Shown one piece after another: positions 12,300 to 20,733 of a stretch of 35,479 nucleotides of DNA. The DNA comes from Methylococcales bacterium. Its GTDB lineage: Bacteria; Pseudomonadota; Gammaproteobacteria; Methylococcales; Methylomonadaceae. Every line of letters starts with the position of its first letter. Position 1 is the stretch's first letter. The stretch covers positions 1 through 35,479 of the forward strand of contig QVQD01000151.1 of the NCBI GenBank assembly GCA_003584875.1, written 5' to 3'. The notes below the pieces were generated by a model, which did no database searches, was not told where the DNA came from, and worked only from the letters and a program-made list of their open reading frames with translations. Position numbers and translations under genes: made by a program.

Positions 12300-14900
12300 A
12301 TGCCGAGGTTAACGAATAACAACATGGCTCATAATCAACCTACTCCACAAACAGCATCTGATAGCTTAACAACTGCTGAGTTTAATTTAGATGCCTGCAT
12401 AGAGCATATTGCTCACTGGTTACCAGCCCAAGGTCCTATTAAAGACTTTATCCACCACAATACCTTACACGCCTTTCAGCACCACCCTTTTCATGAAGGC
12501 GTCGCCATTGCAGCCAAACTATTCGGTGCTCGTAGTTATTTGCCGTTATCAGATTATCAAAAGCTATACTCAGAAGGACGTATCAATAATGACGCGATTA
12601 GCTGGGCGCTAAACCATGCCGACTGTAACGCTAACGAACAAGATCAACTACACAAGACCTTATTCGAAAAAGATAATATCGGCCACTATCCGCCTATGTC
12701 GCTGACTAATAATGGCATACGCAACGCTTGGCTAACTCAGCTAGAGGTTGATCTTAATTCCCATGTTCATCCGATTTTATTTCGCTTGCTCAGTAACTAT
12801 CTTGATCAAGGCATTAGTCGCTGGAGCTTACCCAATGATAACGAATCATTCTGGGATTGTATTGTCCGCTTAGCCAGAAATAGTTTAATACCGCTATATC
12901 CGCTTAATGAGCCACAAGTACAAGACCAACTCATACAAACACCGGAAGAAGTCATTGGCCATTGCCTGAAAAAAATAGTCGGCGACATAGAGCTTTATGA
13001 ACAATATCTCGTAGAAATGTTGCTAGCTCACCCAGGCTGGTCAGGCATGGTGAGCGTCATAGAACAAAACCCCAAAGCCTTACTCGCAAGACGCGACATC
13101 TCGCTTAAACAATTAATCGCCATAGAGTTATTGATGGAATGGGCATCTTTACTTAAGAAAAAAGGTCCTCATTTTGCTTGTGTTGCTCAGTTGCCGCACC
13201 CAAAAGGTACGCCTTTACTAAAAGAGGGTGCGCTTAGCCCTAAAGTGCCTTTACGCTTAAAAGTCTGGCATGAAGCCATGGAATGGTCTTTACATAGCGA
13301 ACTATTGTTAGCCTTAAAACCAAGTAGCTCACAATCTAATCCGACGACACCGGCTGCCCAAGCCTTATTTTGTATCGATGATCGCGAATGTTCTTTAAGA
13401 CGTAACTTAGAAGAAGTCTATCCTCAAGTAGAAACCTTTGGTGCAGCCGGCTTTTTCGGCATTGATTTCTTTTACCAAGGCTTAGATGATGCTTATCCAG
13501 TCGCTCAATGTCCCAATATCATCACGCCCAAGCATTTAGTTAAAGAATCAAGCAATGATGCACCAACAACCAAATTCAGCAAAACTCGTCATGGCCACTT
13601 TACCGGTCATACTTTATTTAGAGGCTGGTTATACACGCAAACCTTAGGTTTGGGTTTTGCGGCTCGCATGGCTTGGGATGTATTTCGACCAGGTGCAAAA
13701 TTACCTAACGTTCGCGCCTTGAGCGAAATTGACGCTCACTCGCAATTACATTTATTAAGAGAATCTGACCTACCTAATGAAGACGGCCATTTACTGGGGT
13801 TTTCGCTCACCGAAATGGCCGATCGTTTAAGCGGCTTATTGCGTAATATTGGCTTAACCAAAAACTTTGCGCCTTTAGTAGTGGTAGTCGCTCACGGCTC
13901 AAGCAGCGTAAATAATCCTCACTTCGCGGCTTATGATTGCGGTGCTTGTTCTGGAAAACCCGGAGCACCGAATGCCAGAGCCTTTGCTTGGATGGCCAAC
14001 AATGAACAGGTACGCAACATATTGCGAGAACGCGGCATTGATATTCCTGACAGCACCCGTTTTATAGCAGCTATGCATAATACTAGCCGTGATGAAATCA
14101 CTTATTTTGATAGTCATTTATTAGAACAACACCCTGCCACTGGCTTTGCGGCTTTTCAAACCTTCATGACCGAAGCCTTAGAGCGAAATGCAGCAGAACG
14201 TTGTCGCTGGTTTGAATTAGCGCCCATTCAGCAAAGCAATAAAATTGCTCATACTCATGTCAAAGAACGCACCACATCGATCTTTGAGCCACGTCCAGAA
14301 TACAATCACTCTAACAATTTATACGCTATCGTTGGAAGACGGCAATTAACGCGCGATTTATTCATGGATAGACGCGCCTTTTTGCATTCTTATGATCCCA
14401 ACACCGATAGTCAAGGTGAGGTCATGGCACGTATTTTATCCGCGGTCATTCCTGTGTGCGGTGGCATTAATTTAGAATACTTATTTTCGCGCATCGATAA
14501 CTCTGTTTATGGCGCAGGTACTAAACTGCCACACAATGTCATCGGTCTATTAGGAGTTGCAAACGGTGTAGAAGGTGATTTACGCACCGGCTTGCCGCAA
14601 CAGATGATCGAAGTTCATCAACCCGCTAGGTTACTGATTGTAGTCGAACAATCGACCAATGTTATGGACAAAGCCATTGCTAGAATAAATGCGCTTAAAG
14701 AATGGTTAGATAACGAATGGGTTAGATTAGTGGCCTGCCATCCTGATAGCCATCAGCAGTTTTTATATTCAGCTCAGGGCTGGGAAGCGATTAACCTCAA
14801 TAGCGAAACTCTAGTACCGTCTTCAGAATTATCTGCAACTATTTTGGCTGGTCAAACTAAAACCATACCCGTCCATCAATTGAATCGGAGCCCCGCATGA
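12300..14900 (+). CDS. dabA: Inorganic carbon transporter subunit DabA (DUF2309)
   Basis: This is the cytoplasmic catalytic subunit of the DAB dissolved-inorganic-carbon accumulation complex. DabA is a zinc protein related to beta-carbonic anhydrases, proposed to hydrate CO2 unidirectionally when coupled to the cation-translocating partner DabB. The 866-aa protein shows the zinc-site pattern of the family: C358 and D360 in the FCIDDREC block, then H532 in VVVAHGSSS and C547 in AYDCGACSG, 15 residues apart as in characterised DabA. R362 in DDRE also fits. Its stop overlaps the dabB start in an ATGA. There is no Shine-Dalgarno sequence before ATG 12300; an in-frame ATG at 12324 (M9) is possible. 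Function is inferred from the conserved site and partner gene. The expected metal-binding residues are all present. Confidence 0.93.
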   Translation: MPRLTNNNMAHNQPTPQTASDSLTTAEFNLDACIEHIAHWLPAQGPIKDFIHHNTLHAFQHHPFHEGVAIAAKLFGARSYLPLSDYQKLYSEGRINNDAISWALNHADCNANEQDQLHKTLFEKDNIGHYPPMSLTNNGIRNAWLTQLEVDLNSHVHPILFRLLSNYLDQGISRWSLPNDNESFWDCIVRLARNSLIPLYPLNEPQVQDQLIQTPEEVIGHCLKKIVGDIELYEQYLVEMLLAHPGWSGMVSVIEQNPKALLARRDISLKQLIAIELLMEWASLLKKKGPHFACVAQLPHPKGTPLLKEGALSPKVPLRLKVWHEAMEWSLHSELLLALKPSSSQSNPTTPAAQALFCIDDRECSLRRNLEEVYPQVETFGAAGFFGIDFFYQGLDDAYPVAQCPNIITPKHLVKESSNDAPTTKFSKTRHGHFTGHTLFRGWLYTQTLGLGFAARMAWDVFRPGAKLPNVRALSEIDAHSQLHLLRESDLPNEDGHLLGFSLTEMADRLSGLLRNIGLTKNFAPLVVVVAHGSSSVNNPHFAAYDCGACSGKPGAPNARAFAWMANNEQVRNILRERGIDIPDSTRFIAAMHNTSRDEITYFDSHLLEQHPATGFAAFQTFMTEALERNAAERCRWFELAPIQQSNKIAHTHVKERTTSIFEPRPEYNHSNNLYAIVGRRQLTRDLFMDRRAFLHSYDPNTDSQGEVMARILSAVIPVCGGINLEYLFSRIDNSVYGAGTKLPHNVIGLLGVANGVEGDLRTGLPQQMIEVHQPARLLIVVEQSTNVMDKAIARINALKEWLDNEWVRLVACHPDSHQQFLYSAQGWEAINLNSETLVPSSELSATILAGQTKTIPVHQLNRSPA

Positions 14901-16774
14901 ACGGTTTAATCTTAACCAGCTTAGCCTTGCCTTTGCTGGGCTTTTTCTTGATATTCTTATCGGATCACAACGAACAACGCATCGCTCGCATTAGCTTTTG
15001 GTGTACCCATGCCATGGGCTTAAGTTTAGTAGGTCTATTACTAACCTGGGCCAACGCCGGCTTCCCTAACCATGAATACCCTTGGTTCACCTTGTATGAA
15101 ACTAGCGACTATCGCTTTCCAATTTTATTTTATTTGGACAAAGTAGGCGCCGTTTATCTATTTTGCATCTGGGCCATATTCTCCATTATCGTCAAATATT
15201 GCAGAGTCTATTTACACCGTGAAGAAGGCTATCAGCGCTTCTTTATGACTATTTTTAGTTTTGTGTTTGGTCTAAATGTCGTGATCTTATCTGGCTCTAT
15301 TGACATATTATTTGCAGGCTGGGAAATAGTCGGTATCTCTTCGTTTTTGTTGATTGCTTTTTATAGGCATCGCGTACAACCGATACGAAATGCCTTACGT
15401 GCTTATACTATTTATCGCTTCTGTGACATCGGCTTATTATTAGGTGCATGGCTATGCCATCTGTTATTCCACGAAAACCAACGCTTTAGCCAATTTGCTG
15501 AGTTATTTAGTAATCCTGCAGTACCTCCAGCCGATTATGCGGCCTTATTATTAATATCAATACTTATTTTGATTGCGGCTATGGGAAAATCTGCGCAATT
15601 TCCATTCTGCTTTTGGTTACCCAGAGCCATGGAAGGACCTACGCCCTCCAGTGCCATTTTTTATGGGGCTTTGTCGGTGCATTTGGGGGTGTTTTTATTA
15701 CTGAGAACGCTACCAATCTGGTCATACTATTATTTGCCGCGCTTTATCATGCTTATCATCGGCTTATTGACGGTCATCGTAGCCAGTATTTCTGAAAAAA
15801 CTCAATCTAATATTAAAGGTCAGATTGCTTATGCCTCGATTACTCAAGTAGGCTTTATGTTTATGGAATTAGCACTAGGTTTAGAATATTTAGTACTCGT
15901 GCATTTCTTTGGCAACGCCTTTTTACGCTGCTATCAACTACTAGTCTCACCTTCTATCGTAGTACATTTACTGCGCGTAGAAAGTGCGACCGATGCCGAC
16001 TTTAACATCACAAAAAGCTCGATATTTGAATCTTTACCAGCCTCCTTACGCAACATCTTGCCTGAAGTTTTACAAAACACCCTGTATGTATTCTCTTTAC
16101 AAGAAGGTCATTTAGAGATGCTAGTTCGCGGGGCATTATGGTCGCCACTCAAGAGATTAGGCTCAAACATTAACCGTAGACCTATAACCATCAAATTACT
16201 TTACGGCATAGCATGCCTTGCCGTGGTTGAAGGCTTATTAATGAGCTTTGGTTTAGATCAAGACTATGTTGCCTTACCGCTTTCGATGCTTATGGTACTC
16301 AGCTCATTAAGCGCTTTCAGTGAAAAACGTAACCCTTACAAAGTATGGAATGCAATCGGAATTAGCTCAATATTAGCCGGAGTTGCGGTGTGTTTTTTAA
16401 ACCCAGACGCCTGGGCTGATATCATAGTTTTTGCCAGCGGCATCATACCTGCTTGGACTTTAGGCATTATAGTGCTATCAAAATTACTTAAAAACATTGT
16501 CTTTGCTGACAGCCCTTTTACTTATAGAGCTTTTGCAGAAACCCAGCCCACACTTTCGGTGTTATTATTTATTAGCTTTTTAGGCTTGGTTGGCTTCCCT
16601 ATTTCACCCGCATTCTTAGGTGAAGATTTACTACTCTCAGATGCCAGTGATTTTGGCCCTTGGTTTGCACTACCGTTGACCATTACTTTTGTCATTAACG
16701 GCATCGCGGCGGCAAGGGTATTTTTACGTTTATGTATGGGTAGACCGACCGAACTAAGCGATAGCAAACGTTAA
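14897..16774 (+). CDS. dabB: Inorganic carbon transporter membrane subunit DabB (NuoL/MrpA-like)
   Basis: This is a polytopic membrane protein of the complex I / Mrp antiporter superfamily (Pfam Proton_antipo_M type), thought to couple cation flux to DabA catalysis. At 625 aa it has many hydrophobic segments. The hallmark antiporter features are E143 in GWEIVGISSF and the K231 loop KSAQFPFCFWLPRAMEGPTP. It overlaps dabA by 4 nt and has a ggag ribosome-binding site 6 nt before its ATG, so the pair is one operon. No other complex I genes lie nearby, which favours DabB over a stray NuoL. The gene order is dabA then dabB. A hairpin follows at 16804-16844. Confidence 0.92.
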   Translation: MNGLILTSLALPLLGFFLIFLSDHNEQRIARISFWCTHAMGLSLVGLLLTWANAGFPNHEYPWFTLYETSDYRFPILFYLDKVGAVYLFCIWAIFSIIVKYCRVYLHREEGYQRFFMTIFSFVFGLNVVILSGSIDILFAGWEIVGISSFLLIAFYRHRVQPIRNALRAYTIYRFCDIGLLLGAWLCHLLFHENQRFSQFAELFSNPAVPPADYAALLLISILILIAAMGKSAQFPFCFWLPRAMEGPTPSSAIFYGALSVHLGVFLLLRTLPIWSYYYLPRFIMLIIGLLTVIVASISEKTQSNIKGQIAYASITQVGFMFMELALGLEYLVLVHFFGNAFLRCYQLLVSPSIVVHLLRVESATDADFNITKSSIFESLPASLRNILPEVLQNTLYVFSLQEGHLEMLVRGALWSPLKRLGSNINRRPITIKLLYGIACLAVVEGLLMSFGLDQDYVALPLSMLMVLSSLSAFSEKRNPYKVWNAIGISSILAGVAVCFLNPDAWADIIVFASGIIPAWTLGIIVLSKLLKNIVFADSPFTYRAFAETQPTLSVLLFISFLGLVGFPISPAFLGEDLLLSDASDFGPWFALPLTITFVINGIAAARVFLRLCMGRPTELSDSKR

Positions 16775-17362: not shown

Positions 17363-19987
17363 ATGAAACACTTAACGGCTATTCAAAAATCAAAGGATAT
17401 CTCTTATTTATCTCGCTTCATGGACAGCCTTCATACTGATCAGGCTAAGCTACGCGAAATTCAAAGTGTTTATGATAATTTAACGTTATTAGGTCAACTT
17501 CTTTGTGCTGGTACTGACATTACCAGTATGCGTAACGACTTTAATACTTTAGCAGAAACATTAATCAATCAATTAGCCCTTGAACTTCGTAAAAAAGCCA
17601 TACTGAGTCTAGGCTATAAAGCCCGTGTTGCCATTGATATATTGGTTAGGAATTTATTTGAGCGTACAGCAGATATAGGCTTCCTTTCTACTGACAATGA
17701 CATTCGTGCCTTTGCCGAAGCGATGACACTTAAATCGCCTTCAATAAACAGCCTCAATATTGACTTAATCACTAGACGGTTCGATGAATATGTTAAAAAA
17801 TATTCGGTATACCAAAATATTATCTTACTTTCTCCTGATGGCACAGTGCTCGCACAATTAGATAACAAAAACCAAGTAACCGCTTCAACTGACGCTCTAA
17901 TTCAAGAGACCCTAACGACCCAACAAGCTTATGTAGAAACCTTTAGAAGCACAGATTTGCAGCCTAAAGTAAAATCATCTCTCATTTATTCCTATAGAGT
18001 CATGTCAGAAGATGAAACTCAAGTAGTCGGTGTGCTCTGCCTTTGCTTTCGTTTTCAGGATGAATGTCAGCGAATTTTCAGCAACCTGATTGCAGATGAT
18101 GACTGGACCGTCATCACTATCTTAGATCCAAGAGGCTATGTGATTGCCAGTAGCGATGAATATCAATTCCCAATCGCTGCTAAACTTGAAACGGTAATCA
18201 AAGATGATTGTAAGATTGTTCGTTTTGGTGGGCGCGAATACTTGGCAACCTCAACCATCTCTTCAGGATATCAAGGTTACTTGGGGCCAGGCTGGCTAGG
18301 CCATGCCTTATCACCGCTGAATCATGCTTTTGAAATGGCTGCCGCTCTTGAATTAGAACGCGTACCCAAAACACTTTTAAAATGCGTGCTAGAGACATCA
18401 ACTTTGTTTAGTGAAGAATCTCGAAATATCCCTATCAAAGCCTCAACTATTCAGCGTGAATTAAATAGAGCGGTATGGAATGGAAATTTATCCATCTCTC
18501 GTAACACGCTTGCGGTGAACGCCTCATTTGCAAAAGTTTTATTGTGGGAAATTAGAAATACTGGCATTAGTACCAGCCAGGTCTTTAGTGATTCCACTAA
18601 CAATCTCTATGAAACCATGATTTCTTCTGCGCTCTATAACTGTGGAACCCAATCTGCCTTAGCTATTGATATTCTGGATCGCAATCTTTATGAACGCGCC
18701 AATGATTGCCGTTGGTGGGCATTAAATAGTGTCTTTAGAGCAGAACTAGCTAAAGGCTCATCAAGTGATGAAGGTCAGCAACAACGACTCACTGAAATAC
18801 TTCGTACGATTAACAACCTATATACCGTCTACAGTAACTTATTAATCTTTGATAAAAATGCCTGCGTACTAGCGGTATCAAACCCTACTTATACGTATTT
18901 AGTTGGTGAAAACCTTCAAGGTAATTGGGTGCGCCAAACACTGGGGCTAGCCGATACTCAAAACTACTGCGTATCGCCTTTTACAGCCTCTACACTCTAT
19001 GATAATCAGCCAGCTTATATCTATTCAGCGGCTATTCGTCAGCCAGATGGCAATAATCCTATTGGTGGTATCGCCATCGTTTTTGATACGCAACCTCAAC
19101 TTGAAACCATGCTCAACGAAACCCTACCTCGCAAAGAGGATGGCTCAGTGGTCGATGGTGCCTTTGCCGTATATGCGGATCAAACAGGCCGTATTATTTC
19201 CAGCACCCACCCTGACTACCAAATTGATCAAGTACTGGAACTCAGTCGAGAATTTTTTGAATTAGAGCCTGCTGAAGGCTGTACCAATATTGTCAGCTTG
19301 AAGGGTCGTTATTATTCTGTTGGTTCTTGTATGTCAGCAGGTTATCGAGAATATAAAGGGCCCGATGATTTATATCGCAACGACATACTGGCTTTAGTCA
19401 TGACACCACTTTCAGATCATATTATCAATGCTGAACAATTGAATACCAACAAGACTAGACTGTCAGAAAGCTATGCTGCACGTCAAACAGGGCTAGTTAA
19501 TTCTGTAGAAATTGCTTCTTTTTATATATGCAAAGGCTGGTATGGTATCCGTTCTAATTGTGTACTAGAAAGTGTTGATACCACAAACATAGTTGAATTA
19601 CCTAGCATGCCAGAATACGTTCGAGGCTATTTAATTTATGCTGATCAAAGCATCCCAGTATTTGATTTAAATGGCTTATTACAACGCGATAATAAGCCGA
19701 GTGAATCCAAGCAAATTATTGTTGTTAGCGTAACAAACTCCAATAATCGCTATGGCATTTTAATTGATGAGCTCGGTGAAATACCAGAAATAGCTCTCTC
19801 AAATATTGAAGCCATCCCTGATTTAGGAGGAAATAAATCAGTGGTAGAGGGTCTAGTTAAACCTAAGACTGACTCAGTCAATGAGCCTATTTTAGTTATT
19901 TTATCGACTGACCGTTTGTTAGACATATTACCCAATTGTATGATGGATAAATTGAGTTTAGAGGAATATTTATTTGACCCATCATGA
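17363..19987 (+). CDS. Soluble double-Cache-like sensor protein with C-terminal CheW domain
   Basis: This 874-aa protein has no signal peptide and no membrane segment. Two related sensory modules lie in tandem: module 1 at about 70-325 with the signature AIDILVRNLFERTADIGFL (90-108), and module 2 at about 415-690 with AIDILDRNLYERANDC (434-449). Each ends in a matching block, GREYLATSTISSGYQGYLGP (290-309) and GRYYSVGSCMSAGYREYKGP (648-667). The pattern resembles Cache-type ligand domains. Residues about 714-860 look like a CheW domain (the RGYLIYADQSIPVFDLNGLL and YGILIDELGEI blocks). There is no chemoreceptor signalling hairpin, kinase or HD/GGDEF domain. CheW domains bind CheA and receptors, so it could feed a cytoplasmic signal into a chemosensory array (inference). 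It has a sigma-54 promoter and a good ribosome-binding site. Confidence 0.8.
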   Translation: MKHLTAIQKSKDISYLSRFMDSLHTDQAKLREIQSVYDNLTLLGQLLCAGTDITSMRNDFNTLAETLINQLALELRKKAILSLGYKARVAIDILVRNLFERTADIGFLSTDNDIRAFAEAMTLKSPSINSLNIDLITRRFDEYVKKYSVYQNIILLSPDGTVLAQLDNKNQVTASTDALIQETLTTQQAYVETFRSTDLQPKVKSSLIYSYRVMSEDETQVVGVLCLCFRFQDECQRIFSNLIADDDWTVITILDPRGYVIASSDEYQFPIAAKLETVIKDDCKIVRFGGREYLATSTISSGYQGYLGPGWLGHALSPLNHAFEMAAALELERVPKTLLKCVLETSTLFSEESRNIPIKASTIQRELNRAVWNGNLSISRNTLAVNASFAKVLLWEIRNTGISTSQVFSDSTNNLYETMISSALYNCGTQSALAIDILDRNLYERANDCRWWALNSVFRAELAKGSSSDEGQQQRLTEILRTINNLYTVYSNLLIFDKNACVLAVSNPTYTYLVGENLQGNWVRQTLGLADTQNYCVSPFTASTLYDNQPAYIYSAAIRQPDGNNPIGGIAIVFDTQPQLETMLNETLPRKEDGSVVDGAFAVYADQTGRIISSTHPDYQIDQVLELSREFFELEPAEGCTNIVSLKGRYYSVGSCMSAGYREYKGPDDLYRNDILALVMTPLSDHIINAEQLNTNKTRLSESYAARQTGLVNSVEIASFYICKGWYGIRSNCVLESVDTTNIVELPSMPEYVRGYLIYADQSIPVFDLNGLLQRDNKPSESKQIIVVSVTNSNNRYGILIDELGEIPEIALSNIEAIPDLGGNKSVVEGLVKPKTDSVNEPILVILSTDRLLDILPNCMMDKLSLEEYLFDPS

Positions 19988-20271: not shown

Positions 20272-20733
20272 ATGCCAAGCATTATCCTCTGTGTCGATGA
20301 CGACAGAACTATTCTTACAGCGATGCGAAATCTGCTAGTTTCAACCCTTGGTAAAACCTGCCGTATCGAGATTGCCGAGAGTGCCCTAGAGGCACTCGAG
20401 ATTTGCGAAGAACTTGCCAATGAAGGCAATGAACCTAAAATAGTCATCTCTGACTTCATCATGCCAGGTATGCGCGGCGACGAGTTGCTCGTGCGTCTGC
20501 ACATGAAATACCCTAATATGATCAAAATCATGCTAACAGGACAGGGGGATTTTTCAGCAGTGATAAGAGTCATCAACGAGGCCAATCTATATCGTTTTAT
20601 CGACAAACCTTTCAAAAATGCTGATCTTGTCCTCACCGCAAAAACAGCCATTGAAGCAAGAACCAGCGTGACCATACTAAATGAGAAGATAAACAATCTC
20701 GAGGTTCGGATTGATAAACTTGAATCTAAGTAA
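20272..20733 (+). CDS. Stand-alone receiver-domain response regulator
   Basis: This 153-aa protein is a CheY-like receiver with a short C-terminal coiled-coil tail (about 128-153, heptad-like INNLEVRIDKLE). Phosphoacceptor D61 lies in VISDFIMPGMRGDEL, the acidic cluster is DDD (9-11), the conserved Thr is in MLTGQ (88-91), and K112 is in RFIDKPF. That last block is typical of receivers fused to HD-GYP or similar outputs, but no output domain follows. No kinase gene is adjacent. It lies 284 nt downstream of the Cache-CheW gene on the same strand, with a REP-like element between them, so a functional link is possible but unproven. No strong ribosome-binding site is seen before ATG 20272. Confidence 0.85.
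   Translation: MPSIILCVDDDRTILTAMRNLLVSTLGKTCRIEIAESALEALEICEELANEGNEPKIVISDFIMPGMRGDELLVRLHMKYPNMIKIMLTGQGDFSAVIRVINEANLYRFIDKPFKNADLVLTAKTAIEARTSVTILNEKINNLEVRIDKLESK

Follow-up and report, generated by a model that had tools for sequence, protein, structure and literature searches.

Soluble tandem-dCache-CheW proteins as candidate cytosolic sensor-adaptors for the chemotaxis kinase CheA

In chemotaxis, CheW is usually regarded as an adaptor that couples passively, and dCache as a sensor that faces outward. The dCache ligand-binding domains of DctB, Tlp3 and PctA/B/C are extracytoplasmic parts of membrane proteins. A CheW domain that carries its own sensor is known from CheWS of Treponema denticola, a CheW-CheRlike SAM sensor that is anchored to arrays and that its authors call the first characterised CheW-fused chemotaxis sensor (PMC10653840). 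The same paper also covers CheW-CZB, CheW-PAS and other fusions of CheW with an input domain, and among the CheW architectures in Pfam it counts 30 that are undescribed, 12 of which have input domains (Fig. S10 of PMC10653840). The word Cache is missing from its main text, and Fig. S10 may include a Cache-CheW architecture. In the literature searched (titles and the starts of abstracts) we found neither a described Cache-CheW protein nor a functional study of the family reported here. We here describe a protein that, like CheWS and the other fusions, holds CheW and a small-molecule sensor domain in one chain. The sensor of CheWS is a C-terminal CheR-like SAM binder, whereas the present protein has two N-terminal dCache modules and a putative location in arrays. 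Our best reading, by analogy, is that it would resemble CheWS in role, as a cytosolic sensor-adaptor; because a soluble protein here joins sensor modules to the receptor-kinase adaptor CheW, its probable task is to inform the chemotaxis kinase about a chemical inside the cell.

The stretch of DNA analysed (hereafter the window) comprises 35,479 nucleotides from a Methylococcales bacterium. The gene lies at 17363..19987 on the + strand and encodes 874 amino acids, a length kept in full in orthologues at 96 and 75% identity. It is present as a single copy in the 3.0-Mb assembly, which is 97.6% complete. No membrane segment was found in the 874-aa protein, for which the maximum 19-residue hydropathy is 1.31. 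This bears out the solubility proposed by an earlier sequence-only reading, and the protein is thus not an extracytoplasmic sensor flanked by membrane helices, as in dCache receptors. Across the family a 19-residue window of at least 1.6 occurs in 16 of 81 members, the highest value being 2.07, but among the controls a soluble CheA reaches 1.82, and DabB, a membrane protein, 2.41.

An AlphaFold2 model of the whole protein, with the 81 family members as alignment input, has a mean pLDDT of 85.3, and Foldseek matches it to CheW structures and to dCache domains. Module 1 (residues 74-326; 17582..18340, +) is recognised by Pfam dCache_1 (PF02743) at residues 107-299 with 49.1 bits (cut-off 45). 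Module 2 (residues 416-686; 18608..19420, +) has a weak Pfam match to Cache_WalK at residues 480-534 (27.6 bits, cut-off 27), and VIA-align places it on the sensor domain of DctB, 3by9_B, with a Z score of 19.8 and 2.8 Å over 226 residues. The VIA-align list did not single out module 1, and its assignment is therefore based on Pfam together with its homology to module 2, which hhalign aligns to it over 234 columns (probability 99.6, E 5e-24). Two motifs occur twice in the translation, the first as IDILVRNLFER (residues 91-101) and IDILDRNLYER (435-445), the second as GREYLATSTISSGYQGYLGP (290-309) and GRYYSVGSCMSAGYREYKGP (648-667). The CheW domain (residues 712-858; 19496..19936, +) matches Pfam PF01584 at residues 719-854 with 60.8 bits (cut-off 23.5) and E. 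coli CheW, 6s1k_C, with a VIA-align Z score of 17.3 (3.0 Å, 142 residues). Repeated motifs, Pfam, hhalign and AlphaFold2 hence agree with the proposal of two related modules followed by CheW, and the structural scores with that of Cache and CheW folds. The layout corresponds to that of CheWS in that CheW and a sensor fold share one chain without a membrane segment, as judged from Pfam, AlphaFold2, VIA-align and hydropathy. The modules have the fold of the DctB, Tlp3 and PctA/B/C domains but differ from them in being soluble, duplicated and marked by an RNLxER helix signature.

The sequence-only reading had noted that the second module carries ERANDC in place of ERTADIGF and took it for the diverged copy. 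The replacement was read correctly, but the polarity is the reverse: the motif DVRWWA is kept in 15 of 15 aligned single-module relatives and D.RWWA is common to module 2 of all 81 aligned members, so that module 1 is the one that departs from the wider superfamily. In a tree built from the modules of 16 members of the family and of 15 relatives with a single module, first, second and single modules form three groups, each with support of 100/100, from which we infer that the duplication would be older than the spread of the family.

The CheW domain departs from the standard at one motif. By alignment, E736, G755, A760 and D761 are the equivalents of E38, G57, R62 and G63 of E. coli CheW, so that E38 and G57 are kept, while the R62-equivalent arginine and the NLRG motif are missing. 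The sequence-only reading had named loss of the contact residues as grounds for giving up the CheW assignment, and the outcome is therefore divided. Over the 81 family CheW domains, E38 is found in 72, G57 in 81, R62 in 22 and G63 in 29, R62 thus being absent from 59, whereas all 22 ordinary CheW domains examined from the same genomes have E38, G57 and R62, and 21 of them have G63. These controls, chosen by frame only, comprise domains from 18 loci, a further three from a single protein, and the CheW of genome G026, with locus L037 excluded for its long frame, and smaller control sets give the same picture. In F7-class CheW the E38-R62 salt-bridge pair is nearly absolutely conserved, and Gly57 and Gly63 are conserved across both CheW classes studied (PMC3828127); in the window protein the pair is incomplete. 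Because E38 is kept and R62/NLRG mostly lost, the altered motif suggests a non-standard array position or a changed coupling of the two binding faces, not a simple substitution for CheW. The pattern is compatible with docking in which coupling is altered, though it is no proof of it.

The same residues bear on a reading in which the protein would act as a decoy or modulator, its CheW domain binding receptor tips without coupling to CheA, and ligand-controlled competition with ordinary CheW tuning array assembly. The uneven retention of E38 and R62 speaks for this, given that the pair aligns the receptor and kinase binding sites, with R62 helping to hold the alignment, and that in E. coli changes at E38 lower receptor binding while R62 substitutions impair chemotaxis with little change in binding (PMC3828127). 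Excess CheW from overexpression moreover blocks contacts between receptor trimers (PMC3828127). However, CheA P5 domains vary at the R62/NLRG motif too (six examined), so loss of the motif need not abolish coupling, and we regard a decoy as unlikely.

A scan of named genomes returned at least 568 stretches that encode a relative of some kind. Among the best 80 of these, from which the taxonomy was read, most of those that name a class belong to Beta- and Gammaproteobacteria; eight records carry names of Campylobacterota taxa, one that of Deferribacteraceae and one that of Chthoniobacter. A 76%-identical relative comes from a record named uncultured Methylococcaceae. A scan of 53 of the 81 aligned members at E<=0.01 recovered CheW in every one and dCache_1 in all but one (52). 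The architecture is therefore no one-off: it recurs with a fixed layout through a far-spread family. The relatives sample has full-length relatives in 6 of its 61 genomes, that of the window included, and the module-profile search gave two-module matches in 6 of 370 Gammaproteobacteria (G000, G555, G570, G607, G675 and G686) and in 3 of 249 genomes of the phylum sample (G000, G274 and G293). The family is thus sparse inside any one group. An in-frame stop interrupts two of its copies (L115 5944-8559 and G570:C1:2852377-2854176).

The proposed co-occurrence with CheA is borne out by the genome counts. All 49 family-positive genomes examined, represented by 44 of the 80 named loci and by six sampled genomes (two loci sharing one genome), encode the CheA dimerisation domain (PF02895). 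In the relatives sample, where 31 of 61 genomes have CheA, it was found in 6 of 6 family-positive and 25 of 55 negative genomes. In the phylum sample, where 191 of 249 genomes have it, so do all 22 that contain a module match, although one of these matches, in G166, looks like an ordinary membrane receptor; all these counts are inflated by kinship, related genomes not being independent observations. Whether one class of CheA is the partner was considered through G067, G068, G075 and G088, each of which has one CheA match, in open frames that differ in length. On this indirect evidence, the tie to CheA is supported.

The gene neighbourhood is less suggestive of chemotaxis. No CheA or CheW neighbour was read in 85 loci with flanks of up to 6 kb, many of which were ended by contig ends, and CheA-REC seed matches in these loci were classed as receiver or hybrid-kinase proteins from length and seed; in these loci the family gene was not seen as part of a Che operon. 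An MCP gene lies near the family gene in three of the 85 loci, L048 and the pair L057 and L099, which are near-copies of each other, and in L048 a NIT-domain gene sits between an MCP gene and the family gene. Two receiver-like genes lie nearby in each of L059, L065 and L066; in L066 both were confirmed by Pfam, as was a PilJ gene, which occurs in one of the 85 loci. The orphan position, with CheA being common anyway, would also be expected had the CheW domain been recruited to a pathway without CheA, the co-occurrence then being background. Against this stand the presence of CheA in all 49 family-positive genomes examined, the contrast between positive and negative genomes of the relatives sample and the fact that sister proteins adjoin CheA in G026 and G258; we consider this reading improbable.

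The sister proteins lack a C-terminal CheW. A module-only search gave 15 single-module proteins of 342-441 aa (longest start; L136-L149 and L153), which share with the window protein the same dCache module, RNL[FY]ER...DVRWWA, but combine one module with an N-terminal MCP tip where the window family combines two modules with a C-terminal CheW. The Pfam MCPsignal tip was found in 10 of the 10 scanned, with 42.7-62.1 bits (cut-off 34.6), and some are publicly annotated as ‘methyl-accepting chemotaxis protein’ (for example NZ_CP089298.1, Methylobacterium currus). The earlier claim that no receptor domain is present hence stands for the window protein, MCPsignal (PF00015) having been found in 0 of 53 family members scanned out of 81 aligned (E<=0.01), but the single-module relatives are small, soluble proteins that do have such a tip. 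In G258 the single-module gene is divergent from CheA-, CheW-, CheY-, CheB- and CheR-like genes (phmmer labels). MtpA of Methylobacterium aquaticum, a cytosolic protein of formaldehyde taxis in which MCP is the sole domain recognised (PMC10613068), may be a single-module member and provides a lead.

A second kind of sister occurs in G026, from the genus of the window, where CheA and CheW are directly followed by a tandem dCache protein of 734 aa that has no CheW domain. The cluster (L051, G026:C54 3470-11664) encodes a CheA-REC with two CheW domains, CheW, the tandem dCache protein, a REC-REC-guanylate cyclase and a PDE-like product whose Pfam score is under the cut-off (19.9 vs 24.8 bits). 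It is a candidate for a chemosensory system that controls a cyclic nucleotide. A cNMP-binding MscS channel is encoded upstream on the opposite strand. A receptor-less CheA system, with the tandem dCache protein replacing receptors, was considered for this cluster and rejected, as two MCP genes lie elsewhere in G026; in G009, an assembly that is 80% complete, no MCP genes were seen. Taken with the single-module proteins, we read the dCache module family as bound up with chemosensory signalling.

Two helical segments precede the modules of the window protein. Segment 1 (residues 21-109; 17423..17689, +), with IDILVRNLFERTADIGFL, lies N-terminal to module 1 and is modelled by AlphaFold2 as helices 21-47 and 54-109, and segment 2 (residues 351-452; 18413..18718, +), with DRNLYERANDCRWWA, as helices 351-380 and 387-452. 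In segment 2, W372-N373-G374 is invariant across 81 sequences. Because the sister proteins carry MCP tips at that place, both segments were tested as relic tips; were they diverged tips, the protein would be a receptor-coupler hybrid acting on CheA without a separate receptor. An ungapped register scan of module 2 of the G026 tandem protein gave 10.5 at the best offset against -7.6 at the next, which reads as a clear MCP-tip relic. Second segments of the window family score slightly above shuffles on the tip profile (mean 1.3 vs -1.6, reversed 0.3), and for four of the 15 sister tips no more than 4 of 200 shuffles matched the score of segment 2. However, single shuffles outscore every member (ten shuffles per member), the N373 register comes no higher than 33rd among 828, and hhalign between family segments and MCP or sister tips is not significant, with no probability above 3.5 outside the RNL helix that they share. 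MCPsignal is absent from all members scanned, and the predicted model of one single-module protein shows a continuous helix at 18-140 with no hairpin. Relic MCP hairpins are consequently not claimed for the window family: for segment 2 we lean weakly towards a relic, which is not established, and a hybrid with diverged tips seems to us very unlikely. The broader possibility is an intracellular dCache family with two outputs to CheA, an N-terminal MCP tip in single-module proteins or a C-terminal CheW in double-module ones, the latter being receptor-coupler hybrids that would gate CheA internally without a transmembrane receptor; we entertain it as a doubtful generalisation.

We return to the sensor-adaptor, in which ligand occupancy would alter CheA activity without a transmembrane receptor, and to which we assign a probability of roughly 0.6. 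What has been computed is the set of domains and their order, the predicted solubility, the conservation, the occurrence together with CheA and the relationship to MCP-tip and CheA-cluster proteins, and the sensor-adaptor reading is based on the folds, the fixed layout, the CheA co-occurrence, the sisters in G026 and G258 and the precedent of CheWS. Counted against it were the orphan gene, the low retention of R62 and G63 and the general frequency of CheA. Mechanistically, the two tandem dCache modules would take up one or two intracellular small molecules, the C-terminal CheW domain would dock the protein into the CheA/receptor array, and occupancy would then change CheA activity in a direction that may be either up or down, a transmembrane receptor being unneeded. 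A conserved soluble dCache-CheW fusion, present in free-living Proteobacteria with cultured strains among them, would offer metabolic signals a general route to CheA arrays. The family would also test whether sensor-fused CheW, with one characterised case (PMC10653840), is a common mechanism, and its many members without the R62 motif offer a natural experiment on what CheW requires for coupling.

Downstream of the family gene, at 20272..20733 (+), lies a stand-alone response-regulator receiver of 153 aa (Pfam Response_reg, 64.2 bits) in which no output domain was recognised. As a partner it was rejected, since it adjoins the family gene in G000 and G019 (the 96% relative) only and not in G006; it is probably not a conserved partner. 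Upstream, window positions 12300-16774 encode DabA (Pfam, 779 bits) and then a membrane protein that, judged by where it lies and by its sequence, was taken as DabB, a candidate inorganic-carbon transporter that is present in G019 too. Elsewhere in the genome of the window, L043 3407-4981 encodes a protein with three CheW domains near MCP and CheA, and the genes between, judged from the starts of their sequences, resemble CheB, CheR and CheY.
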